From Deltaproteobacteria bacterium (GTDB taxonomy: Bacteria; Desulfobacterota; Desulfomonilia; UBA1062), in contig DSBG01000106.1 in NCBI GenBank assembly GCA_011046135.1, positions 1-40,082 on the forward strand: a stretch of 40,082 nucleotides of DNA, in the 5' to 3' direction. Of the stretch, positions 544-32,871 are shown piece by piece. The translations under genes and the position numbers were made by a program. The notes below the pieces were generated by a model that saw nothing but the letters and a program-made list of their open reading frames with translations, did no database searches and was not told where the DNA came from. Within the stretch, counting starts at the first letter, position 1. Every line of letters starts with the position of its first letter.

Positions 544-3500
544 TTACTGCTGGAGCCAGTAGTACCGGTGTATGTGGTCGACATCTCCGGCATCAATGAT
601 GACTGCACCGCCTTCAGTTCCCACTGCCACAAAGGCGCCACGTTCCGTGACCACAAGGACCGGATCTGATGGAATACCGCTTCCTATGCTCAGATAGCGG
701 TCTTCCTTGGTCAGTGTCGTTTCGTCTCCGTCAAAACTTGGAAATACCGCTTCACCTGTCTTGTAGTCAACGGCATAAAGCCTGGCGAAACCAGAACCTG
801 CACCGACGGAGCAGAGATCTTCAGCGGAATAGCCTTCAACAGAGGGACTGAACGTCGTGAAATACACGACCTTGTTGTACACCAAGGGTGTTGAGACCAC
901 TTTTTCTCCAGTGTTTTCAAGCTCGATGAACCATCCAAGACCGGATGCCAGGTTGAGCCGGTAGTCAGCCTTCTCCTGTTCTGTCAAACCAGAAGGTGTT
1001 GAGGTCGTACCCTGGAGAACGTCTGCTGTTTCATCCGAGAGATCGGAATCAGTGATGGGATTGTTGTCATTCCATGTTTCCGGCCAGGTATTCCTGATGG
1101 CATAGAATCGGTTCGTCACCGTGGTGTCATTCGGGTTTTCCCTGTCTCCGCTGCCGATGTAGACGTAATCGCCCAAGAGTTCCTGGGCAATTCCCGGTGC
1201 TGAGTGGAACTTTCTGAGCTTATCCGTGCCTCCATCATCATCTGCCTGGAAGAGCAGCCTCTTTGACCAGATCCCGTCATACGTTCCATCACTCTTTTTT
1301 CTGCTCTCAAAAACAAAGAGGTCTCCTCCCAGGGATGGCGCGTAGATGACATCATCGCAGCCATCGTCATCGTCGTCATAGGTTCTCAGATCAACCATAC
1401 AGTACTTCATCTTGTCATAGGATGCGAAATTAAAATCATTGATGTTGGTTGCGGCGAGGTTCCCTGTCGTCGCCTCCACGGCGAAGATCGCCCGTCCCTT
1501 GGTGTCTGATGCTCCGGGGTCTGCATTGTCCTGGTTCGTGTCGTATCCACCGGCAATGAGGAGCACATCCTGCTCGCTCGCTCCACCACTGAGCTTGATC
1601 CTGCTGAACAGGGGCGTGGACCAGGACTGCCCAAGCTGCTCGGAACTCAGAATATTTTTTGAAATACTGGCTACGAAGCTCGGAGCCTCGTAGTTCGTGA
1701 CATCCAGGATGAAATACTGGTTGTATAGTTCGACCCCGGTTGCAATGTCAGCCCCTCCCCTCCTCAGGCCGAAAACCACGTAGGTGTTTCCCCCGCTCCG
1801 ATATACCACCGGCGATCCATCCACATAGATGTCATGTACAGAGTCTCCGGTTATGTGCTCTGTCGACCCTTCGGGAGGAAGGTGTTTGAGGTTCGGCAGA
1901 AGATCCCATGGAATGAAGGCCCACGCCTCAGTGACCGTGTCATCGCCGATATCCTCCGGCGTCCCTTGATCGTTGTCCACAAAACAGTGCAGAAACCCGT
2001 CGTTTGCCCCCACAAAGATGACGTTTTTGCTGTTTGTGAAATCATAGAGGATTGCTGGTCGAGAATGGAGAATATCTCCCATGATCCACTCACGCGGCCT
2101 TCCATCCGTTCCAGTGTACCCCGGAGCATAGATTCCACTCGCAGTGACAAAGTCCATCAGATCATCTTTCTGGTCAGTTGTGGAAAGTCCGAAATCAGCT
2201 GGGGATATATCACTAGTACTTTTGTCAAAAGAGATGAACCCAGTGCCGTCTTTAAAGGTTCTGAACACTCTGCTGGACTGGGTTTTCAGCACAGCGCCCG
2301 CTCCGCCACGATCGACGGTCAGACCTTCGTATCCGGATACATCATACCACGCTGTTTTCGCACTTTCCTTGATAGCACCGAGAGAATCTGTCGCACTGTT
2401 TCCATTTCGGTCCAGAATTACACCATCTTTGGAAAGCCCGAACTTCTTGAGGTTGCCTTTCCACAAGCCAGGATTGGAACTGTCTGGGGAAAAGATGCCC
2501 AGGTATAGCCCGTTGTCCGCATAGGTCCGGTTCATCCTGCTCACCGGAACCACGGGTGAGACGAAGATCATGTTCGTTTCCATGATCTTGCCCAGGATGT
2601 CTTCAAAGATCTGAGCAAGCGAGACGTCTTCATCGGTGAAGTACTCACCACCTCCGTGGGACGCGGTTGACTCGAGTAACTGGTGTCCCACATCAAATCC
2701 AATGGTATAGGTGATTATGTTCTGATGGGGGAAATCATCACTGTCAAAGGATGTTCCACCCAGGTCAGTGAAAGACCCGTCGAGGAGATCCTCGTCATGG
2801 AGGAACTTGGCCACATCGTCCAGGTAGTCGCTCCCATCGAACGCATATGCGTGCTGTACACAGTCGTCGTCTATCCAATGGAACTGGTCATCTTTCTTAC
2901 AGGGGTCTGCAGCATCAACGTCGCCGATATAATCTCCGATGACCTTACTGTTCAGATAGATCCTGTCCCAGAGCCAGCTGTTTCTGTCATAGGTAGGTTC
3001 ACCGTCGGTCATGATAATATTGTAGTTCTTTTGGCAGCGCCACTGGATGGCCGGATCGAAGTCGGTCAAGTAGTTCACACCTGAATTGAACCATGAAGGC
3101 TGCCTTGCATAGTAGAGTCCCATCTCCGCCAGGGTCTCTGCCAGCGGGGTCCAGGTGGTGGGAGCGATACTGTCGATCTGGGCCTTGAGAATATCCTTCT
3201 CTGCCTGGGTTGTCCTGGTCTGCAGAGGAGAGATGAGCCGTCCTCCCTCGGAATGATTGAAGATGAACAACCCGAATCGAACACCGTCAGTTGTCTGGAC
3301 AAGGTCTTTGATGGTATTCTTGGCAAGATCAATTTTTTGCACTAACCCGATACTCTGCGACGACAAGAAATTGAGGTAATTCCCAGTGGCAAGGGTTCTC
3401 CAGGTCGAGCCACCGCAGTTGTAGGGGGAACCCGTGATCAATCCCCTCCAGAGGCCACTCGTTTCCAGGGAACTTCGCGCAGAGGTGCATGATATATTCG

Positions 3501-3780
3501 TTAACCAGGTGAAACCATACCAGACACCTGTTGACCGCCTCTGGTAATAGACATAATTCCGTGTCCTGCTGCCTGAGTAAACTGTCGCGCTGTTATATCC
3601 AGAAACATCTTGGGCCGGCACCCATTCTTCCATACTACCGGAGTTGTCGAACATGATGAGCACGTTGGGCGGTATGTTGATCACACCTCCACCGAAGATG
3701 TCTGTATCATCGGCCTGCAAAAGAGACGGTACCCCTATCAGAAGCATGATGATGCTCGTCAGAAGACACTTTTTCATCAT
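544..3780 (-). CDS. pilY1: Type IV pilus tip adhesin/assembly protein PilY1
   Basis: 1078 residues, normal size for PilY1. A signal peptide occupies about residues 1-23 (MMKKC, hydrophobic core, LLQA). A von Willebrand A-like domain follows, with the MIDAS motif DNSGS at 45-49, a downstream TWTPLAE threonine and an IIMTDGEPT strand. The C-terminal half is the PilY1 beta-propeller, recognisable by VIFVGANDGFLHCF near residue 600 and an Asp-rich loop (YDDDDDGCDD, about residue 800) that resembles a calcium site. In known systems PilY1 sits at the pilus tip with the minor pilins, primes assembly and mediates adhesion or surface sensing. RBS AAAGGAG precedes ATG 3780. It is the sixth gene of the run comEC-fimT-pilW-pilV-pilX-pilY1, 17 nt after pilX. 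Confidence 0.95.
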   Translation of the reverse strand: MMKKCLLTSIIMLLIGVPSLLQADDTDIFGGGVINIPPNVLIMFDNSGSMEEWVPAQDVSGYNSATVYSGSRTRNYVYYQRRSTGVWYGFTWLTNISCTSARSSLETSGLWRGLITGSPYNCGGSTWRTLATGNYLNFLSSQSIGLVQKIDLAKNTIKDLVQTTDGVRFGLFIFNHSEGGRLISPLQTRTTQAEKDILKAQIDSIAPTTWTPLAETLAEMGLYYARQPSWFNSGVNYLTDFDPAIQWRCQKNYNIIMTDGEPTYDRNSWLWDRIYLNSKVIGDYIGDVDAADPCKKDDQFHWIDDDCVQHAYAFDGSDYLDDVAKFLHDEDLLDGSFTDLGGTSFDSDDFPHQNIITYTIGFDVGHQLLESTASHGGGEYFTDEDVSLAQIFEDILGKIMETNMIFVSPVVPVSRMNRTYADNGLYLGIFSPDSSNPGLWKGNLKKFGLSKDGVILDRNGNSATDSLGAIKESAKTAWYDVSGYEGLTVDRGGAGAVLKTQSSRVFRTFKDGTGFISFDKSTSDISPADFGLSTTDQKDDLMDFVTASGIYAPGYTGTDGRPREWIMGDILHSRPAILYDFTNSKNVIFVGANDGFLHCFVDNDQGTPEDIGDDTVTEAWAFIPWDLLPNLKHLPPEGSTEHITGDSVHDIYVDGSPVVYRSGGNTYVVFGLRRGGADIATGVELYNQYFILDVTNYEAPSFVASISKNILSSEQLGQSWSTPLFSRIKLSGGASEQDVLLIAGGYDTNQDNADPGASDTKGRAIFAVEATTGNLAATNINDFNFASYDKMKYCMVDLRTYDDDDDGCDDVIYAPSLGGDLFVFESRKKSDGTYDGIWSKRLLFQADDDGGTDKLRKFHSAPGIAQELLGDYVYIGSGDRENPNDTTVTNRFYAIRNTWPETWNDNNPITDSDLSDETADVLQGTTSTPSGLTEQEKADYRLNLASGLGWFIELENTGEKVVSTPLVYNKVVYFTTFSPSVEGYSAEDLCSVGAGSGFARLYAVDYKTGEAVFPSFDGDETTLTKEDRYLSIGSGIPSDPVLVVTERGAFVAVGTEGGAVIIDAGDVDHIHRYYWLQQ

Positions 3781-23304: not shown

Positions 23305-24582
23305 CTAGGACATTCCCAGATCCAGATATGGATTGAAGTATCCTGCCCTGACCGGAATCTCGTGTATGAGCCTGGGTATCCCCATTCCTGCAGGAAGTTT
23401 CTGACCGATTGTATCAAGGTAGTGATCCGGATCGATATTGAGATTGCGCCACTGAATCATGTCGATTTTGGCGTCTGAAACAAATCTTTTCAGTGCTTCA
23501 ACCTCCTTTGGTGCATCGGAGAGGCCCGGAAAAACAAACAGGTTAATGGATACAAACCTTTCTCGGCGCTTCATCTCCTGGGCACTTCGGAAGAGTGCAT
23601 CAAAATCATATGATGGTTGAAAATATGCCTCATATGTACTTCTGCGTGCTGAGTTCATACTGATTCTCATGCTGTCCAATCCTGCATCCGCAAGCTCGGC
23701 GACCTTCTCGGGCAGACTCGCATTGGTGTTGAGATTGATCACGCCCTTGGAGGTTTCTTTTCGGATCAGTCTGATGGCATCACGTAGGGTATCTGCAACG
23801 AGGAGGGGCTCACCTTCGCATCCCTGGCCGAAACTGACCACCGGGTTCTGGGCGCTGAATATGTGTTTGAGTGCAACCTCTGCAATTTCCTGTGGACTCG
23901 GGATAAAGTCGATTCTCTGCTGCGGTGAGGGTGGTCTGCACGGATCCTGTTTCGATATACATCCCACACACCTGGCATTACAGAAAGGAGATGCCGGCAG
24001 CGGTGCCTCTTCACGATCCTGGAACAGATTGAGTGCAGCAGGACATTCATAAACCATGGCACAGTGTTGTAGGTGTTCAACAAGTCTATTGTCCGGAAAT
24101 AGTTCTGTAAACGCTCGAATCCCTTGCCTGATTCGATCATGGTGGAAGGTATTCGGGTCCTGTCGAAGGGATGGGTCAGTTCGAATACCCGTGGCCACAA
24201 AACCATCGTGCCAACCAAGTGCGGTATAGGCGAAGAAAGGGAGCTCTGATGAATCACTCCGGCGCTCCCATGATGCGAGGTATGTCTGAGTATAGGCCGC
24301 GGGGAGAAAGGTGGCGACCGCGAAGATCTGTTGAGACTCATCATAGGGATTTCTGGTGAGCACCACCATCTCTCCCGTATGCCTGTCAAACCCCACAGGA
24401 TGTCTCTTGGGCAGGACGTAGAGCTGTGAACCCCGTGGCAGTTCGATCGTTTCTTCACAGGGCATGGGGTAAAAGTAGTCCCCGCTCCGACCCACCATGG
24501 CAAGGCCTTCGAAGTCCATAATGTTTCCTTTGGCATCAGCAAAGACAAGGTTCGGCATCAGCTCTGTCATGCTCAGGCTCAT
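23305..24582 (-). CDS. Radical SAM protein, substrate unknown
   Basis: 425 residues (ATG 24582, or ATG 24570 four codons later; neither has a strong RBS). Residues 1-180 are an uncharacterised N-terminal domain. The radical SAM core starts near residue 200 with CNARCVGC, the C-x3-C-x2-C cluster motif, then VVSFGQGCEGEPLL (GGE-like strand) and INLNTNASLPEKV. Further Cys (HCAMVYEC, KQDPC) flank the motif and could bind another cluster. I do not recognise the product. It is divergent from the formate dehydrogenase operon across a 342-base regulatory region, which suggests but does not prove a link to that enzyme. Confidence 0.85.
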   Translation of the reverse strand: MSLSMTELMPNLVFADAKGNIMDFEGLAMVGRSGDYFYPMPCEETIELPRGSQLYVLPKRHPVGFDRHTGEMVVLTRNPYDESQQIFAVATFLPAAYTQTYLASWERRSDSSELPFFAYTALGWHDGFVATGIRTDPSLRQDPNTFHHDRIRQGIRAFTELFPDNRLVEHLQHCAMVYECPAALNLFQDREEAPLPASPFCNARCVGCISKQDPCRPPSPQQRIDFIPSPQEIAEVALKHIFSAQNPVVSFGQGCEGEPLLVADTLRDAIRLIRKETSKGVINLNTNASLPEKVAELADAGLDSMRISMNSARRSTYEAYFQPSYDFDALFRSAQEMKRRERFVSINLFVFPGLSDAPKEVEALKRFVSDAKIDMIQWRNLNIDPDHYLDTIGQKLPAGMGIPRLIHEIPVRAGYFNPYLDLGMS

Positions 24583-24675
24583 ATGCTATCGGGGAGCGCT
24601 TTGCAAGCCTATCGTACCCTCTGTGTGTGACATATCTCGACTCCTGACACCCATCATCACGAGGTCCGCTCACTG

Positions 24676-24762
24676 CTTTTCCCCGTACGCGGGGCATATC
24701 TTCAGGCAAAGGAGGTCCGCCAGACATTGAAGGCTACTTTTCCCCGTACGCGGGGCATATCT
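24676..24762 (+). repeat. Direct 26-bp repeat, two copies 61 bp apart
   Basis: The 26 bases at 24676-24701 recur identically at 24737-24762. Each begins with CTTTT, continues into the palindrome CCCCGTACGCGGGG and ends with CATATCT. A third palindrome of the same form, CCCCAGCAGTGGGG, follows at 24763-24776. Palindrome centres are 61 and 21 bases apart. Set 90-170 bases upstream of a sigma-54 promoter, they look like binding sites of an enhancer-binding activator. Confidence 0.75.
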
Positions 24763-24851
24763 CCCCAGCAGTGGGGAAAAAAGCCCCCGATCCGTGTTGG
24801 CGACACGGTGTTGAGATATAATTCCATCATGTTTTCAAATAGATAGGTGCC

Positions 24852-24867
24852 TGGTATCAAACTTGCC
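24852..24867 (+). promoter_or_regulatory. Sigma-54 promoter of the formate dehydrogenase operon
   Basis: TGGTATCAAACTTGCC has GG (24853-24854) and GC (24865-24866) with the required 10 bases between, close to TGGCAC-N5-TTGCW. The start of transcription should be near 24877, giving a leader of about 48 nt before the ATG at 24925. Upstream palindromes (24676-24776) would hold the activator. Confidence 0.6.
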
Positions 24868-24924
24868 TGCAGAATGTGACTACTCGGAATGTATGCATAT
24901 TCCATCCTGAAAGGGAGGTTTAAA

Positions 24925-25767
24925 ATGGGAACCATTTCAGACAACATATATAGCCTGCAACCAGTTCAAATTTCTCGAACCCTTCCCCAGATTCGAGATC
25001 ACAGGCTGTTCCAGCTCAAGCTGGAAAATAGGACTGGGTGGGAGGCTTTTGGACACCAACCCGGTCAGTTTGTAGAAGTGTCAATCTTTGGCAAAGGTGA
25101 AGCCCCCATCAGCATATCTTCCCCCCCGACCCGACCTGACAGCCTTGAAATCTGCGTCCGTCGCACCGGAAAACTCACCGATGCCCTGTTTGAGCTGGAA
25201 AAAGGTTCACGCCTCCACATCAGAGGCCCCTATGGCAGGGGCTTCCCCATCGATGTGCTCAGGGGGAAAAAACTCCTCCTCGTCGCGGGGGGTCTCGGCC
25301 TGGCTCCGCTCAGATCTCTTCTCCTGTATGCCCTCGACAAACGTGATGAATTTGACGAGATCATCCTCATGTACGGCACGAACAGTCCTGATAATGTCCT
25401 GTTCAAATACGAACTCCTGAGCTTCTTCGATCGGGACGACATCACCTACCTCTACAGCGTCGACAGGGATGAGGAAGGAATCTGGAAACAATATGTCGGG
25501 GTGGTCACCGGGCTCTTTGACCGGGCTACCCTCTCGCCGAAAGACACCTACGCGGTGCTGTGCGGCCCCCCCATCATGTACCGCTTCGTGGTGGAGAAAC
25601 TCCTCAAGCTCGATTTTCCCAGGGAACACATCTACGTCTCCCTTGAAAGAATGATGAAGTGCGGAGTGGGCAAGTGCGGTCACTGTGCCATTGGGGATAA
25701 ATACTGCTGCACCGACGGCCCTGTCTTCTCCTATCCCGAGATAGAAACAATACAGGAGGCAATCTGA
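24925..25767 (+). CDS. FAD/NAD(P) and 2Fe-2S oxidoreductase subunit (HydG/AsrB type)
   Basis: 280 residues from ATG 24925 (RBS GGGAGG). FAD-binding barrel about 20-110 (HQPGQFVEVS, PISISSPPT), then a NAD(P)-binding domain (LLLVAGGLGLAPLRSLL, YAVLCGPPIMYRFV), and a C-terminal [2Fe-2S] motif with Cys246, Cys251, Cys254 and Cys261/262 (KCGVGKCGHCAIG). This is the gamma subunit architecture of cytosolic NiFe hydrogenases and of anaerobic sulfite reductase. Two bases separate it from the formate dehydrogenase gene, so it probably exchanges electrons between NAD(P)H and that enzyme. Cytosolic; no signal peptide. Confidence 0.9.
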   Translation: MGTISDNIYSLQPVQISRTLPQIRDHRLFQLKLENRTGWEAFGHQPGQFVEVSIFGKGEAPISISSPPTRPDSLEICVRRTGKLTDALFELEKGSRLHIRGPYGRGFPIDVLRGKKLLLVAGGLGLAPLRSLLLYALDKRDEFDEIILMYGTNSPDNVLFKYELLSFFDRDDITYLYSVDRDEEGIWKQYVGVVTGLFDRATLSPKDTYAVLCGPPIMYRFVVEKLLKLDFPREHIYVSLERMMKCGVGKCGHCAIGDKYCCTDGPVFSYPEIETIQEAI

Positions 25768-25769
25768 TC

Positions 25770-27806
25770 ATGGAAAGGATCGCGAGTATATGCCCCTTCT
25801 GCGGATGTGGCTGTCAGTTCTCTCTCGTGACTGAAAACAACAGGGTGATCGGAGTCGAACCAAGCCCGAACAATCCCGTGAACAAGGGCATGCTCTGCAC
25901 GAAGGGATGGAACTCATACGGATTCGTTCACGCTCCTGACAGACTCACCGTCCCTCTGGTGAGAAAAGACGGGGAGCTGGTGGAAAGCTCATGGGATGAA
26001 GCCCTTGACCTCGTCTCATCTCGACTGACAGAGATCGGAAAAAACCATGGGCCGGGATCTCTCGCCTTCCTGAGCTCCGCCAAGGTGAGTAACGAGGAGA
26101 ATTACCTCTTCATGAAGATGGCACGAGCCGTGTTCAAGACAAACAATGTCGATCACTGCGCCAGACTCTGACACAGCGCCACGGTGGCCGGTCTGGCCGC
26201 GACATTTGGATCAGGAGCCATGACGAATTCCATCGGCGAATTTGAAGATGCGGATCTGTTTCTCATCACCGGAACTAATACCACAGCACAACACCCCCTG
26301 ATCGGTTCACGCATCATCAATGCCAAGGAGCGTGGTGCACAGATACTTCTCATTGATCCACGGGAGATTCAACTTGCACACTTCGCTGTCCTGCACCTCA
26401 AGCAAAACATTGGAACCGATGTTGCCGTGCTCAACGGAATGATGAACATCATCATAGAAGAAGAACTCTATGACAAAGAGTTCGTTGAGAAAAGGACAGA
26501 GGGATTTGACGCACTCAAGGCCCTGGTGTCCAGGTACACCCCCAAGATCGTGCAGCTAATCAGCGGCATCAATGCCACCGATCTCGAGCGTGCGGCACGC
26601 ATGTACGCCCAGGCCCCCAAGGCCATGATCCTCTATGCCATGGGAATCACGCAGCATACCACCGGTACGGACAATGTCAAATCCTGCGCAAACCTCGCCA
26701 TGCTCACCGGTCACCTGGGAAAACCCTCCTCAGGCGTCAATCCTTTGAGAGGGCAGAACAATGTTCAGGGGGCCTGTGACATGGGTGGACTTCCGGTCGT
26801 CTACACAGGCTACCAGCGTGTAAACGATCCTGCTGTGAAGAAGAAGTTCGAGGAGGCGTGGGGGGTATCGGATCTCGACGATAAGCCCGGTCTCACCATC
26901 ACCACCATGATGGAGGCGGCACAGAGAGGTGACCTCAAGGCACTCTATGTCATGGGTGAAAACCCCCTGATGAGCGATCCTGATACCACGCACGTGGAGC
27001 TTGCGTTGTCCAACCTAGATTTCCTTGTCGTGCAGGATATCTTTCTCTCGGAAACAGCCCGTCTCGCCGACGTAGTTCTTCCTGCCGCGTGCTTTGCTGA
27101 GAAAGAAGGAACGTACACGAACACTGAACGAAAAGTCCAGCTCTCACGAAAGGCCATCTCTCCTCCGGGGCTGGCTCGATCTGACTGGGAGATCGTGGTG
27201 GATATCTGCCGGCGATGCGGATACGATATGAACTACAAAACCATCGCAGCGATCTTGTCGGAAATAAACAAGGTGACCCCGTCGTATGCAGGAATCACCT
27301 ATGATCGATTACGGACATCATACGGCATTCAGTGGCCCTGTCCCAACGAAGAGCATCCGGGCACGGTTTTCCTGCACAAGGATCAATTTACCAAGGGACT
27401 CGGGACTTTCCTTCCCTGCGAGTTCAAACCTCCTGCAGAGGTTCCGGACAGTGAATACGATTTTATCCTGACCACCGGGCGTGTCTACTACCAGTATCAC
27501 ACGGGAACCATGACCAGGAGAATAGAAATCCTTGAGCGTGAAGCCCCTGAGGCTCTCCTCGAAATCAATCCCGATGATGCGAGACGTCTCGGCATTAAAA
27601 ACAACGACATGGTCGAAGTTGCATCCCGCAGAGGTTCCGTCAGGCTCAAAGCCGAGGTGACCCCACGGGTACCCAGGCGCGTTCTCTTCTCCACGTTCCA
27701 TTTCTCTGAAGCACAGATCAATACCCTTACCAACCCGGCTCATGATCCTGTAGCAGGAATACCCGAGTATAAAGGATGCGCTGTTAACGTGAGGAGGTGT
27801 GAATGA
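25770..27806 (+). CDS. fdhA: Formate dehydrogenase catalytic subunit, selenocysteine (in-frame UGA)
   Basis: 678 residues, read through TGA at 26169-26171 as selenocysteine 134. The flanking residues NNVDHCARL-U-HSATVAGL align with the Sec site of E. coli FdhF, and the frame continues unbroken to 27806. N-terminal [4Fe-4S] motif C8-x2-C11-x3-C15 with Cys43 (MLCTKGW). Molybdopterin-binding segments follow: LITGTNTTAQHPLIGSRI, LRGQNNVQGACDMGG, MGENPLMSDPDTTH, VVLPAACFAEKEGTYTNTERKVQ and, near the end, TTGRVYYQYHTGTMTRR. It oxidises formate or reduces CO2 with a Mo/W-bis-MGD cofactor. No Tat signal, so cytosolic. It overlaps the next gene by four bases. Automatic annotation is likely to split it at the UGA. 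Confidence 0.93.
26169..26206 (+). promoter_or_regulatory. Bacterial SECIS element
   Basis: Directly 3' of the UGA codon, GGCC (26186-26189) and GGCC (26195-26198) pair around the loop GGTCT (26190-26194). E. coli fdhF has the same GGUCU apical loop at a similar distance, where SelB binds. Neighbouring bases (GGT and CGAC) may extend the stem imperfectly. Confidence 0.85.
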
Positions 27807-28825
27807 AGCTGCTTCCCAAAAACAAGCTGGTTCCTATTATATCATCGTGGGCACAACGGTACACAGTTCTCGCTCCGAGCTCAACGGAGCAGGGAGAATG
27901 CGTATTTGACATCTTCAAGGAAGAGACATTCACCCTCGAGTATCGCAAGCCGTCTCTTCCACCAAAATCTCAGCTTCTCCCCCAGAGCGATGTGATCTTT
28001 CGGGTTGAAAAAGGAACGTTCAGAGAAGTCCTGCCAGAAAGGAACGTTCTCATGTTCGGTATCCGCTCCTGTGACCTCATGGGATTGCGGCAATCCTCGA
28101 GTTTCATGAGTCGAGACACCCAGGATATCTATTACCGCAGAAGATCCGATCATTGTCTGAAGGTGGTTATGGCCTGCGCCGGCCCCCAGAATGAGACCTG
28201 TTTCTGTACCACTTCGCGTTCAGGACCCTCTGCAACCACCGGGTTTGATCTCCAGTTCTATGATCTGGGCGATTCCTTCCTGGTAGAATCCGGATCGACA
28301 GAGGGTGATGAACTCCTGAAGGCCGGGAACCTTGCCGACGTTGATGACAAGGACACCGTAGAGCAGGTCAACGCATTGCGGAACAAGGCTGTGGCGGCAA
28401 TTACCGAGGTTCCCGACGTAACCCGCGCCATGGAAATCCTTTCATCACGCGGGGCAAGCGAAGAACTGTGGGAACGCTTTGGAGACAAGTGTATCGTTTG
28501 CGGCGGATGCGTGTACGTGTGTCCAACCTGCACCTGTTTTACCGTGGCCGATTTCCCATCTGGCCCAGATACGGGAGAGCGCATCAGGTCCTGGGATACC
28601 TGTCTCTACGGGGGCTTCACCAAAGAGGCTTCGGGCCACAATCCACGCTCAACACAGGGGTTGCGGTTGAAGAGACGTCATGAACACAAGCTGCTCTACT
28701 ACAATCAGACCGATGTTCAGGAAGCCCTGTGCGGATGTGTTGGATGTGGAAGGTGTTCTGATTATTGCCCTGTGCACATCGGCACCCTCGAGGTCGTGAA
28801 GGCCATTGTAGAGGAACAATCCTGA
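27803..28825 (+). CDS. Two-cluster [4Fe-4S] electron transfer subunit (HydB/AsrA type)
   Basis: 340 residues. The N-terminal two thirds match the HydB/AsrA family: NVLMFGIRSCDLMGL, DIYYRRRSDHCLKVVMAC, ETCFCTT. The C-terminal third has two cluster motifs, CIVCGGCVYVC (with further Cys in PTCTC) and CGCVGCGRCSDYC, enough ligands for two [4Fe-4S]. The family links an oxidoreductase with a flavoprotein such as the 24925 gene. Its start overlaps fdhA by four bases. Together the three genes look like a soluble formate:NAD(P)H oxidoreductase. Polarity in vivo cannot be told from sequence. Confidence 0.9.
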   Translation: MKLLPKNKLVPIISSWAQRYTVLAPSSTEQGECVFDIFKEETFTLEYRKPSLPPKSQLLPQSDVIFRVEKGTFREVLPERNVLMFGIRSCDLMGLRQSSSFMSRDTQDIYYRRRSDHCLKVVMACAGPQNETCFCTTSRSGPSATTGFDLQFYDLGDSFLVESGSTEGDELLKAGNLADVDDKDTVEQVNALRNKAVAAITEVPDVTRAMEILSSRGASEELWERFGDKCIVCGGCVYVCPTCTCFTVADFPSGPDTGERIRSWDTCLYGGFTKEASGHNPRSTQGLRLKRRHEHKLLYYNQTDVQEALCGCVGCGRCSDYCPVHIGTLEVVKAIVEEQS

Positions 28826-28861: not shown

Positions 28862-29269
28862 ATGACTGACGAAAAGAAACGGATCCTCATCATAGACGAC
28901 GACCAAGACTACGGAGATGCCCTCAAGATCGTACTGGAGAACCATGGATACTCGGTGCACCATGCCCTGAATATTGGCGATGGAAAGAAGTCGATCGAAG
29001 AAGACCCACCAGATCTGATCATCCTGGATGTCATGATGGAGAAGCACACGGATGGATTTGACCTGTGTTCAAACCTCAAGAATGACCAGGCCTGCAGCAT
29101 GATTCCCATCCTGATGGTCACTGCGGTCACGGAAAAGACAGGGTTCAAGTTCTCGCCCGAGACAGATGGAGACTACTGTCTCGCCGACGACTATGTTGCG
29201 AAACCTGTCCCCGTTGCCGACTTGCTCTCGCGGGTGAACAATCTCCTGACGAGCGGAAAAACCTGTTAA
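28862..29269 (+). CDS. Single-domain response regulator 1
   Basis: 135 residues, receiver only. Acidic pocket D12-D13-D14, phospho-Asp56 (IILDVMM), and the conserved Lys in YVAKPVPVADLL. The region between beta-4 and beta-5 is longer than usual (TEKTGFKFSPETDGDYCLADD), a feature shared with the second receiver gene at 32908. RBS GGAGG before ATG 28862. It lies 36 nt after the Fe-S subunit gene, so it may be co-transcribed with the formate dehydrogenase, an unusual place for a receiver. Confidence 0.9.
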   Translation: MTDEKKRILIIDDDQDYGDALKIVLENHGYSVHHALNIGDGKKSIEEDPPDLIILDVMMEKHTDGFDLCSNLKNDQACSMIPILMVTAVTEKTGFKFSPETDGDYCLADDYVAKPVPVADLLSRVNNLLTSGKTC

Positions 29270-29414: not shown

Positions 29415-31397
29415 ATGACATTACAGACCCGTCTTTTAATCGGTTTCCTCATAGCGACCTGTCTCACGGGCGCAGTTGCCACGGTGGTGGGAATCACCAT
29501 CATCAATTCCACAACCATTGACGAGGTTCAGCGAAAGGTACAGCAGGACATCAACACCGCAAAACTCATTTACCGGCACAACCTCGAGAGGCTTGAATAC
29601 CAGCTTCAGTTCATCGCACTGAGATCACCTATTCACGAGGCCATCCTCTCCGGTGATCTCTCGCCCCTTGAAGATCTGAGAATTCTGATACGTGAGGGAA
29701 CAGAACAATCGCCCGAACACATGTCCCTTGACATGCTGACACTGGTGGATACCGCGGGCAGGGTCATCTACCGAGCAGCCAATCCTGATGCACGGGGAGA
29801 CATCATCATGTGGGATTCCGTGGTCAGGAGGTGTCTGGAAAAACAGGTCCCCCACTCTTCTGCTGTCACCATGCCCTTTGAGGTGATCATTGCACAGAAT
29901 CCGAAGCTTGAGAGTCGGTTGCGGATTCCTATTGTAAAGACACCCCAGTCCATCGAGATCAGAGAAGAAGTCCTCACCGACGGCATGGTGCTGCGGGCCG
30001 CATACCCCATCAGAGATAAAACCGGCACCCTCCTGGGGGCACTGGTGGGTGGGGTGCTGCTCAACAGGGATTACTCCATCGTTGACACGATCAGGGAGAC
30101 CGTGTATTCCGGCGAAGTGTACCGCGGCCGCCACATGGGGTTTGCGACCATCTTCCTCGGGGGGGTTCGAATCGCCACCAACGTGATCACAACTGACAAC
30201 CAGAGGGCTGTGGGAACCATTGTCTCAAAAGAGGTCTTCGACCAGGTCATCGAACAGGGTCAGGACTGGATAGGCCGCGCCTTTGTGGTGGATGACTGGT
30301 ATATCAGTTCCTACACCCCCATCTGGGACATTGACAACAACAATATCGGCATGCTCTACACCGGAATCCTCGAAGCAAAATACCGTGATATGAAAAGAAA
30401 CACCACGTTGATATTCCTGGGCATAATAACCCTGGGAATGGTTCTCGCCTTTATCATTTCATTTGGTCTCGGTCAGAGTATCATCAAGAGAATCAGGATC
30501 CTGAAGCAGGCCACCGAAGCGATATCGTCCGGGAATCTCGAATACCAGCTGCCCCCGGGACGATCGTCGGGCTTCGACATCATCGACGAGGCATTCAACA
30601 ACATGGCACGATCCCTCAAGGATCGAGATGAGCGGCTGCAGAAGGCGTTCCAGCGAATTACCCGCACCGAGAGGCTCGCATCTCTGGGACTCATGGCAGC
30701 AGGAGTGGCCCACGAGATCAACAACCCCCTGGGAGGCATCCTGCTCTACAGCAACCTCGTACTGGAAGAAATGCCCGCTGACCACACCGCACGTCAGAAT
30801 TTGGAGAAAATCATCTATCAGACCGACCGCTGCAAAAAAATAGTACAGAATCTTCTCGATTTTGCAAGAACCCCTTCTGGAGACCAGTCACCCCTGTCAA
30901 TCAACGATGTCATCCTCACCTCTTTGAACCTCGTGAAAGACCAATCCATGTTCCTCGGTATCGAGTTTAAGACAGAACTGGCTGAAAATCTTCCAAAAAT
31001 CATGGGGGATGCGTCCAGACTTGAAGAGGTTTTCCTCAATCTTTTCATCAATGCATCCGATGCCATGACGGGGTCAGGGACCATGACCATCAGGAGTCGT
31101 CTTTCCAGCACGGGAACGATAAAGATTTCCATTACCGACACCGGTAAAGGGATCGACAAGGCCTATCTCCCCCACATCTTTGAACCGTTTTTCACCACAA
31201 AAGATCCTGGACAGGGAACTGGTCTCGGCCTTTCCATAACCTATGGAATCATCCAGAAACACAACGGGATCATCGATGTCGAATCCGAACCGGGAAAGGG
31301 AACCACGTTTACCATCACGATCCCCCCGACCAGGAGTGACGAATCGACAGAACAACGGCGTTACAGCGCGGCACGAGAGGACAATCCTATTGGCTAG
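29415..31397 (+). CDS. Membrane sensor histidine kinase (Cache-HAMP-HisKA)
   Basis: 660 residues. TM1 about 8-30, extracytoplasmic double-Cache-like domain about 31-328 (TLVDTAGRVIYRA, AAYPIRDKTGTLLGALVGGVLL), TM2 about 331-353, HAMP to about 405, HisKA with His433 in GVAHEINNPLGG, and an ATPase domain (FLNLFINASDAM, ITDTGKGID, FFTTKDPGQGTGLGLS). The sensor, possibly for a small acid such as formate, is not identifiable from sequence. The RBS is weak. The 3' end overlaps the next gene by eight bases, so this kinase and the NtrC-type regulator form a cognate pair. Confidence 0.93.
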   Translation: MTLQTRLLIGFLIATCLTGAVATVVGITIINSTTIDEVQRKVQQDINTAKLIYRHNLERLEYQLQFIALRSPIHEAILSGDLSPLEDLRILIREGTEQSPEHMSLDMLTLVDTAGRVIYRAANPDARGDIIMWDSVVRRCLEKQVPHSSAVTMPFEVIIAQNPKLESRLRIPIVKTPQSIEIREEVLTDGMVLRAAYPIRDKTGTLLGALVGGVLLNRDYSIVDTIRETVYSGEVYRGRHMGFATIFLGGVRIATNVITTDNQRAVGTIVSKEVFDQVIEQGQDWIGRAFVVDDWYISSYTPIWDIDNNNIGMLYTGILEAKYRDMKRNTTLIFLGIITLGMVLAFIISFGLGQSIIKRIRILKQATEAISSGNLEYQLPPGRSSGFDIIDEAFNNMARSLKDRDERLQKAFQRITRTERLASLGLMAAGVAHEINNPLGGILLYSNLVLEEMPADHTARQNLEKIIYQTDRCKKIVQNLLDFARTPSGDQSPLSINDVILTSLNLVKDQSMFLGIEFKTELAENLPKIMGDASRLEEVFLNLFINASDAMTGSGTMTIRSRLSSTGTIKISITDTGKGIDKAYLPHIFEPFFTTKDPGQGTGLGLSITYGIIQKHNGIIDVESEPGKGTTFTITIPPTRSDESTEQRRYSAAREDNPIG

Positions 31398-32745
31398 AAA
31401 GTCCAAACGGGTGCTCATTATCGATGATGAAGAATCGATCCGCGACGGTTGTCAACAGATCCTCACCCGTATGGGTCACGATGCAACAAGCACTGCAGAT
31501 GCAGAAACAGGACTCGAACTTGCTGCTCATGAACACTTCGATCTTGTTCTCCTCGATCTCCGTATGCCAAAAATCGATGGTCTCGAGATCCTGAGGAGAT
31601 TGAAACAGGACCAGAACATAGCCTCGGCGATCATCATCATTACGGGGTATGGAACCATTCCTCTGGCGGTAGAGGCCATGCGGATGGGAGCCGGTAATTT
31701 CCTTACCAAACCGTTTTCTGCCTCTGAACTCAAGAAAGCGATCAAAGATGTCCTTGAACCTGTACAGGCAGTAAAAGAATCGGATACGCTCTCCCTCCTC
31801 ATCGGAGGCAGCGACTACATGAAGGATCTCAAAGACACCATCAGGAGGGTTGCCAGCACTGACAGCACCGTGCTCATCACCGGAGAGAGCGGTACCGGCA
31901 AAGAACTCGTTGCCAGAACAATCCACACACTGAGCAAGAGATCAGAAAAGGCCTTCATTCCCGTTGACTGTTCCTCTCTTGTTCAGAATCTCATGGAGAG
32001 TGAGCTCTTCGGACATACCAGGGGAGCCTTCAGCGGGGCTTCAGAGACCAGGGATGGCCGCTTCCAGGTAGCCGACAAGGGCACCCTGTTTCTGGATGAA
32101 ATATCCAACATCAGTCTGGATACTCAGGCAAAGCTCTTGCGTGTGATTCAGGAACAGGAAGTTCCGCGTGTGGGAAGTTCAATACCTGAAAAGGTAGATG
32201 TGCGGCTTATTACCGCAACGAACAAGGACCTCAGGCAGGAGATCCTCGATGGAACGTTCAGGGAAGACCTGTTCTATCGAATCTCCGTGGTGCCCATTCA
32301 TATCAAATCACTCAGAGAGCACAGGTCGGATATCCCGGAAATTTCTCAGCACTATCTCGAGATCTACTCGGAAAAGCATTCCAGCGTTGCCAGGCGTTTC
32401 AGCCCGGATGCCATGAAATCTCTCATTTCCTACAGTTGGCCTGGAAACATACGAGAATTGAAGAATACCGTAGAGCGCCTGTGTGTGATGTGCGAGCACG
32501 AAGAGGTCACGCTTTCCGATATCCTCTACTATGGTCAGGATACCAAGGCAAAGGCCCCGGTGGTTGACCCCTTTTCAGGCACGATGACCCTGGTGGACGT
32601 GGAAAAAGAACATATCGAGAAAGCCCTGCGTCACTTCAATTTTCACATGAACAAGACTGCAAAATTTCTCGATATCGATCGGAAGACCCTGAGAAACAAG
32701 ATCAGATTGTATGGAATAGAACTTGAAGAGAGGAATGACGAGTAG
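31390..32745 (+). CDS. NtrC-type sigma-54 response regulator
   Basis: 451 residues from TTG 31390 with GAGAGGA before it; a longer reading from 31243 lies within the kinase and is unlikely. Receiver 1-120 (D12-D13, phospho-Asp56, Lys107), AAA+ domain about 137-370 with Walker A GESGTGKE (165-172), GAFSGA loop (212-217) in place of the usual GAFTGA, Walker B LFLDE (233-237) and SWPGNIRELKN, then a C-terminal Fis-type HTH (MNKTAKFLDIDRKTLRNKI). It is an enhancer-binding activator of sigma-54 RNA polymerase. Probable targets: the promoters at 24852 and 32856, which share an upstream motif. Confidence 0.94.
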   Translation: MARKSKRVLIIDDEESIRDGCQQILTRMGHDATSTADAETGLELAAHEHFDLVLLDLRMPKIDGLEILRRLKQDQNIASAIIIITGYGTIPLAVEAMRMGAGNFLTKPFSASELKKAIKDVLEPVQAVKESDTLSLLIGGSDYMKDLKDTIRRVASTDSTVLITGESGTGKELVARTIHTLSKRSEKAFIPVDCSSLVQNLMESELFGHTRGAFSGASETRDGRFQVADKGTLFLDEISNISLDTQAKLLRVIQEQEVPRVGSSIPEKVDVRLITATNKDLRQEILDGTFREDLFYRISVVPIHIKSLREHRSDIPEISQHYLEIYSEKHSSVARRFSPDAMKSLISYSWPGNIRELKNTVERLCVMCEHEEVTLSDILYYGQDTKAKAPVVDPFSGTMTLVDVEKEHIEKALRHFNFHMNKTAKFLDIDRKTLRNKIRLYGIELEERNDE

Positions 32746-32777
32746 CGCTGCATCAAGGGGTTATCTTCCTCACTCAT

Positions 32778-32802
32778 GGGGCATTTCTCCCCTATAGGGA
32801 GA
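32778..32802. promoter_or_regulatory. Putative activator site (UAS) upstream of receiver 2
   Basis: GGGGCATTTCTCCCC (32778-32792) matches 14 of 15 bases of GGGGCATATCTCCCC at 24752-24766 before the formate dehydrogenase operon. It overlaps a second inverted repeat, TCTCCC-CTATA-GGGAGA (32786-32802). The centre lies about 72 bases upstream of the -24 element, a normal distance for an enhancer site. Confidence 0.55.
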
Positions 32803-32855: not shown

Positions 32856-32871
32856 TGGCACCTTCCTTGCT
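32856..32871 (+). promoter_or_regulatory. Sigma-54 promoter of receiver 2
   Basis: TGGCACCTTCCTTGCT equals the sigma-54 consensus TGGCAC-N5-TTGCW exactly; GG (32857-32858) and GC (32869-32870) have the right 10-base separation. Transcription should begin near 32882, 26 bases before ATG 32908, which has RBS AGGAGG. Confidence 0.8.

Follow-up and report, generated by a model that had tools for sequence, protein, structure and literature searches.

The intergenic region in front of a formate dehydrogenase (fdh) operon of a Deltaproteobacteria bacterium very probably serves as the enhancer of a sigma-54 promoter, bound by the NtrC-type regulator encoded at 31390, as judged by comparative sequence analysis of a 40,082-nucleotide (nt) stretch of contig DSBG01000106.1 (this whole stretch is termed the window herein). 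The predicted operator is a pair of GGGG-N7-CCCC palindromes with centers at 24759 (site 1) and 24780 (site 2). Together with a second array behind the regulator gene, it probably represents a new operator and a small regulon of a well-known switch type in Syntrophales.

TABLE 1 Features of the fdh promoter region and neighboring genes in the window
Feature	Position	Strand	Remarks
Distal 29-bp repeat copy	24673–24701		CCCC and GGGG half-sites only (24670–24684, 24691–24705); not common to relatives
Proximal 29-bp repeat copy	24734–24762		Includes part of a partial site (24731–24745, AGGCTACTTTTCCCC) and most of site 1
EBP site 1 (predicted), GGGGCATATCTCCCC	24752–24766		GGGK-N7-CCCC conserved in 31 orthologous promoters
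EBP site 2 (predicted), GGGGAAAAAAGCCCC	24773–24787		21 bp from site 1; conserved in the same 31 promoters
Weak IHF-like site TTTCAAATAGATA	24833–24845	+	7 of 9; relatives carry better ones at this position
Sigma-54 −24/−12 element TGGTATCAAACTTGC of the fdh operon	24852–24866	+	Conserved in 31 promoters
FAD/NAD electron-transfer subunit, first fdh operon gene	24925–25767	+	Likely start 24925, behind GGGAGG
Formate dehydrogenase alpha subunit (FdhA)	25770–27806	+	TIGR01591, 881.9 bits with TGA read as U
Iron-sulfur subunit, sulfhydrogenase-beta-like	27803–28825	+	
Single-domain response regulator in fdh cluster	28862–29269	+	
Cache-domain sensor histidine kinase, presumed EBP partner	29415–31397	+	
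NtrC-type response regulator/sigma-54 activator, candidate	31390–32745	+	Receiver, sigma-54 AAA+ with GAFSGA, Fis-type HTH
Second array, GGGGTTATCTTCCTC and GGGGCATTTCTCCCC	32757–32792		Sites 21 bp apart; same geometry as fdh array
Sigma-54 element TGGCACCTTCCTTGC	32856–32870	+	Upstream of response regulator (32908) and kinase (33302)

Palindromes and a 26-bp repeat upstream of the fdh operon

The original prediction had described three CCCC-N6-GGGG palindromes, spaced by 61 and 21 bp and partly contained in identical 26-bp repeats, as a helically phased, enhancer-like array. The palindromes are indeed present (24681 to 24694, 24742 to 24755, and 24763 to 24776, with centers at 24687.5, 24748.5, and 24769.5), with no further copies in the window, and two of them lie inside the exact repeat CTTTTCCCCGTACGCGGGGCATATCT, whose copies (24676 to 24701 and 24737 to 24762) are offset by 61 bp and lengthen to 29 bp with one mismatch. 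Both features exceed the maxima obtained when the 306-bp intergenic region was dinucleotide shuffled 1,000 times: the longest exact direct repeat was 12 bp (26 bp observed) and no shuffle held more than one palindrome (three observed).

Within the genome, the repeat has no other copies except for three chance-like 3-mismatch matches to its 18-mer core. No repeat was found at the equivalent position in relatives among 148 genomes searched, no exact match was found across 84,980 genomes, and those 3-mismatch matches in other genomes that were inspected appear to sit in unrelated sequence. A dispersed repeat family, which the original prediction had named as an outcome speaking against it, was therefore rejected, only two copies having been found genome-wide.

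A pair of GGGG-N7-CCCC sites is conserved in related promoters

Orthologues of the first fdh gene (78 to 83% identity) were identified in 15 further genomes from the family, and all 16 family promoters contain two 15-bp GGGK-N7-CCCC palindromes and a sigma-54 element, TGG-N8-TTGC, at a fixed distance. A named set of MAGs, mostly labeled Deltaproteobacteria or Syntrophaceae and overlapping partly with the family genomes, gave the same result. In an alignment of 31 fdh promoters (one from the window, the others from Syntrophales MAGs), the sites are mostly spaced by 21 bp from center to center (22 to 23 bp in a few promoters), and the start of site 2 lies 77 to 81 bp before the TGG of the sigma-54 element; at one locus (L134), the site pair is retained, but farther upstream. 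With these 31 promoters anchored at site 2, the mean information was 1.18 bits per column for the sites, 0.15 for the spacer, and 0.02 for the upstream sequence. By this comparative evidence, the operator pair is real and evolutionarily constrained.

The alignment also changes the phase in which the sequence is to be read. Conservation is seen at both GGG-CCC sites but not in the N6 stretch of CCCC-N6-GGGG, and the palindrome alone is not enriched genome-wide (94 occurrences versus 115 for the reversed control). We therefore rejected CCCC-N6-GGGG as the operator; in the conserved phase, it runs from the right half of one site across the spacer into the left half of its neighbor. Instead of the three palindromes originally proposed, the conserved array comprises two sites, and the 26-bp repeat is absent from relatives (no similar sequence precedes site 1 in any of the other 30 promoters) and carries only two half-sites in its distal copy. 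The search upstream of homologous operons that had been suggested along with the prediction thus recovered the GGGK-N7-CCCC pair in 31 promoters but no 26-bp repeat. Placement on one face of the DNA, likewise predicted, holds for the conserved pair, whose 21 bp correspond to two helical turns, but only roughly for the 61-bp offset, which amounts to 5.8 turns.

Many single-mismatch matches to the array are due to chance, as reversed-pattern controls were equally numerous in G+C-rich genomes; therefore, only matches with a sigma-54 element behind them were counted. No arrays at this score were found in related loci without the EBP (about 0.6 Mb), and the three matches in the scan all represent one fdh array in L167, an EBP-bearing genome. 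The possibility that the sites serve the divergent radical-SAM gene was rejected, since they persist at loci where no such gene was found. A possible sigma-70 promoter of that gene (TTGCAA-N17-TATGAG, identified by eye) is located at 24582 to 24640 on the minus strand.

The fdh operon, its sigma-54 promoter, and an IHF-like site

The mechanically called open reading frames of fdhA are broken by an in-frame TGA (26169 to 26171, codon 134), and reading this codon as selenocysteine yields a full-length alpha subunit. Elsewhere in the window, a 1,078-amino-acid ORF without a Pfam match is located on the minus strand (544 to 3780). Ahead of the first fdh gene, a −24/−12 element (GG and GC separated by 10 nt) was found, from which the fdh transcript is predicted to start near 24878. 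The genome encodes rpoN (PF04552, E = 7.5e-63, contig C1).

An IHF site between the enhancer and the sigma-54 promoter is common, not obligatory. In 21 of the 31 promoters, a WATCARNNNNTTR-like sequence begins 19 to 20 bp before the TGG, and the best IHF-like match reaches 8 or 9 of 9 positions in 17/31 spacers, compared to about 13% of shuffled spacers and 6/31 upstream control stretches. Relatives thus show enrichment of the match at a fixed position, and the match is weak in the window itself, which may point to IHF-assisted looping; such a bend may also be the reason for the narrow range of distances between sites and promoter.

The 31390 gene encodes the likely activator

A nearby gene, at 31390, encodes the domains of an EBP (receiver, AAA+ with a GAFTGA-type loop, and HTH). 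Its orthologues (65 to 77% identity) usually follow the fdh operon in the same gene order, and the core of the recognition helix, DRKTLR, is invariant in those orthologues that cover the helix; paralogues (41 to 44% identity) have VNRTTLVEK or VERSNLHRK in its place. In six genomes whose available sequence contains no EBP orthologue (L160 to L165; first-gene identity, 76% in L160 and 52 to 64% in L161 to L165), both sites and the sigma-54 element are missing at the fdh promoter; L160 keeps the genes for the iron-sulfur subunit and response regulator and lacks those for the kinase and the EBP. Across the phylum, a match to the EBP at E ≤ 1e-150 was obtained in 10 of 297 sampled genomes, of which nine belong to the family. 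Since two genomes, G003 and G022, keep the EBP but have no gene closely orthologous to the first one of the fdh operon, the EBP is not tied exclusively to fdh. Although the co-occurrence of EBP and sites is partly due to common descent, the 31390 regulator is likely the activator acting at the array.

A second array and further potential targets

The second array of the window directly follows the 31390 gene, and its sigma-54 element starts 78 bp past the start of the proximal site. Many relatives keep this array, some of them in a form whose distal site is degenerate; in a few, it was not found. At ≤1 mismatch, the window's genome contains only these two arrays and one chance-like match. The original assignment of the region as a sigma-54 enhancer array is thus strongly supported by site conservation, the fixed distance to the −24/−12 element, co-occurrence with the EBP, and this second target promoter, in the form of the revised pair of sites.

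In genus g4, an array is also found ahead of a NuoE/NuoF-like operon, again with a response regulator. At L116, L117, L121, L122, and L123, the operon behind the array is NuoE/NuoF-like and, as in the fdh operon, includes a single-domain response regulator of its own. At L120 (one genome), the array precedes a FAD-dependent oxidoreductase, named from the sequence by eye. At L118 (G017:C3, about 2384 to 2420, minus strand), a good tandem array and a sigma-54 element are not directly followed by a long ORF; the gene behind them may be broken, or sigma-54 may drive a small RNA there.

Alternative explanations

The enhancer might be bound by another EBP instead of the 31390 regulator, as the genome encodes many other EBPs, including NtrC-type ones (two more above 1e-100 in G000). 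We consider this unlikely: the sites track the 31390 orthologue, being present with it and missing in the six genomes without it, the second array lies directly behind the 31390 gene, and the recognition helices of the paralogues differ. The 26-bp repeat is most economically read as a partial, local duplication of the array. That the conserved pair alone matters, the repeat being a neutral relic of this duplication without regulatory effect, is the view toward which we lean slightly, given that the repeat is found in this genome only, that the distal copy has lost its outer half-sites (TCAC and TCAG), and that the 61-bp offset is a noninteger number of turns; however, the identity of the copies at 26/26 bases fits either recent origin or selection, and the added half-sites may modestly strengthen binding.

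Since type I-E CRISPR arrays have 29-nt repeats and 32-nt spacers, the geometry observed here, we also tested whether the repeat is a two-repeat type I-E-like mini-array or encodes a CRISPR-derived guide RNA. The period is exactly 61 bp, the repeat forms a hairpin, and the genome has CRISPR systems, with two cas1 genes and array repeats GTCGCCCCCCACGCGGGGGCGTGGATTGAAAC (contig C117) and GTCTCAATCCCTTCTATCAGGTCGTGGAATCAATC (contig C160). However, these repeats are unrelated to the 26-bp repeat, no further copy of the latter occurs in this or other genomes, half of it is accounted for by the conserved operator, and no match to Cas6e was obtained in the genome (a model positive in only 2 of 14 control genomes), which leaves this explanation with a practically negligible probability, and we rejected it. 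The two CRISPR loci themselves (C117 and C160 of G000) differ in repeat, and the 32-nt repeat of C117 resembles type I-C. Very improbable as well are RNA hairpins acting in the transcript as an attenuator or terminator: the minus strand from 24730 to 24790 folds better than shuffles (z, −2.8), but the sites precede the sigma-54 promoter and fall outside the predicted fdh transcript, they are kept at loci in which the divergent radical-SAM gene was not found, and the hairpin region gave neither an Rfam match nor a terminator. A phage origin was rejected as well, with no phage match.

Proposed mechanism and implications

According to the preferred reading, that of an enhancer bound by the 31390 regulator, two regulator dimers would occupy the two palindromes on the same helix face, two turns apart. 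Phosphorylation, probably by the adjoining Cache-domain kinase encoded at 29415, would convert these dimers into an active ATPase assembly, and DNA looping, aided by an IHF bend in most relatives, would bring the activator to the sigma-54 polymerase at 24852 to 24866. The regulator probably also drives the second promoter at 32856, which precedes the response regulator and kinase genes.

Syntrophic bacteria dispose of electrons as formate and hydrogen, and, to our knowledge, little is known about how the enzymes involved are regulated in them. We tentatively suggest, as a possibility, an undescribed Syntrophales regulon, defined by the GGGG-N7-CCCC pair and a 31390-type regulator, that coordinates the cytosolic formate dehydrogenase, NADH-linked NuoE/NuoF-type complexes, and a second phosphorelay; if true, such a regulon would be a circuit dedicated to controlling the flux of formate and hydrogen between species. 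What the analysis offers is a specific operator that can be tested, one candidate each, identified by name, for the activator and the kinase, and two promoters of the window as predicted targets; the operator can be used across Syntrophales genomes for regulon prediction and in the search for the signal.

Comparison with known systems

The arrangement resembles NtrC-type upstream activating sequences, with paired short palindromes in helical phase before a −24/−12 element, a possible IHF-like bend between sites and promoter, and regulator and kinase genes nearby; it differs in its GGGG/CCCC half-sites with N7. We know of no described EBP with a GGGG-N7-CCCC site, and the motif was not found in a comparison covering the running text of the literature; the operator sequence is probably novel. 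In Escherichia coli, formate metabolism is under sigma-54 enhancer control by FhlA, which senses formate directly via its GAF domains. Such control is shared with the system proposed here, whereas the candidate 31390 is a receiver-domain response regulator and the sites differ.

The fdnG operon of Geobacter sulfurreducens is an RpoN-dependent selenocysteine formate dehydrogenase operon whose promoter was mapped by primer extension (PMC2725144). It differs from the fdh operon in encoding a membrane-type Fdn enzyme, with no EBP or enhancer named in the available portion of that paper, and is like it in combining a sigma-54 promoter with a selenocysteine-containing enzyme (PMC2725144). For Desulfovibrio vulgaris, the available text of the 2015 regulome study, compared by its wording, names no formate dehydrogenase target (PMC4641369). 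According to the accessible parts of two reports, small EBP-adjacent regulons are usual in this organism, and EBP sites are mostly inverted repeats of 4 to 6 bp with 3 to 8 bp between them (PMC4641369, PMC3333781); the regulon proposed here is alike in being small, in lying next to its EBP gene, and in having short inverted-repeat sites.
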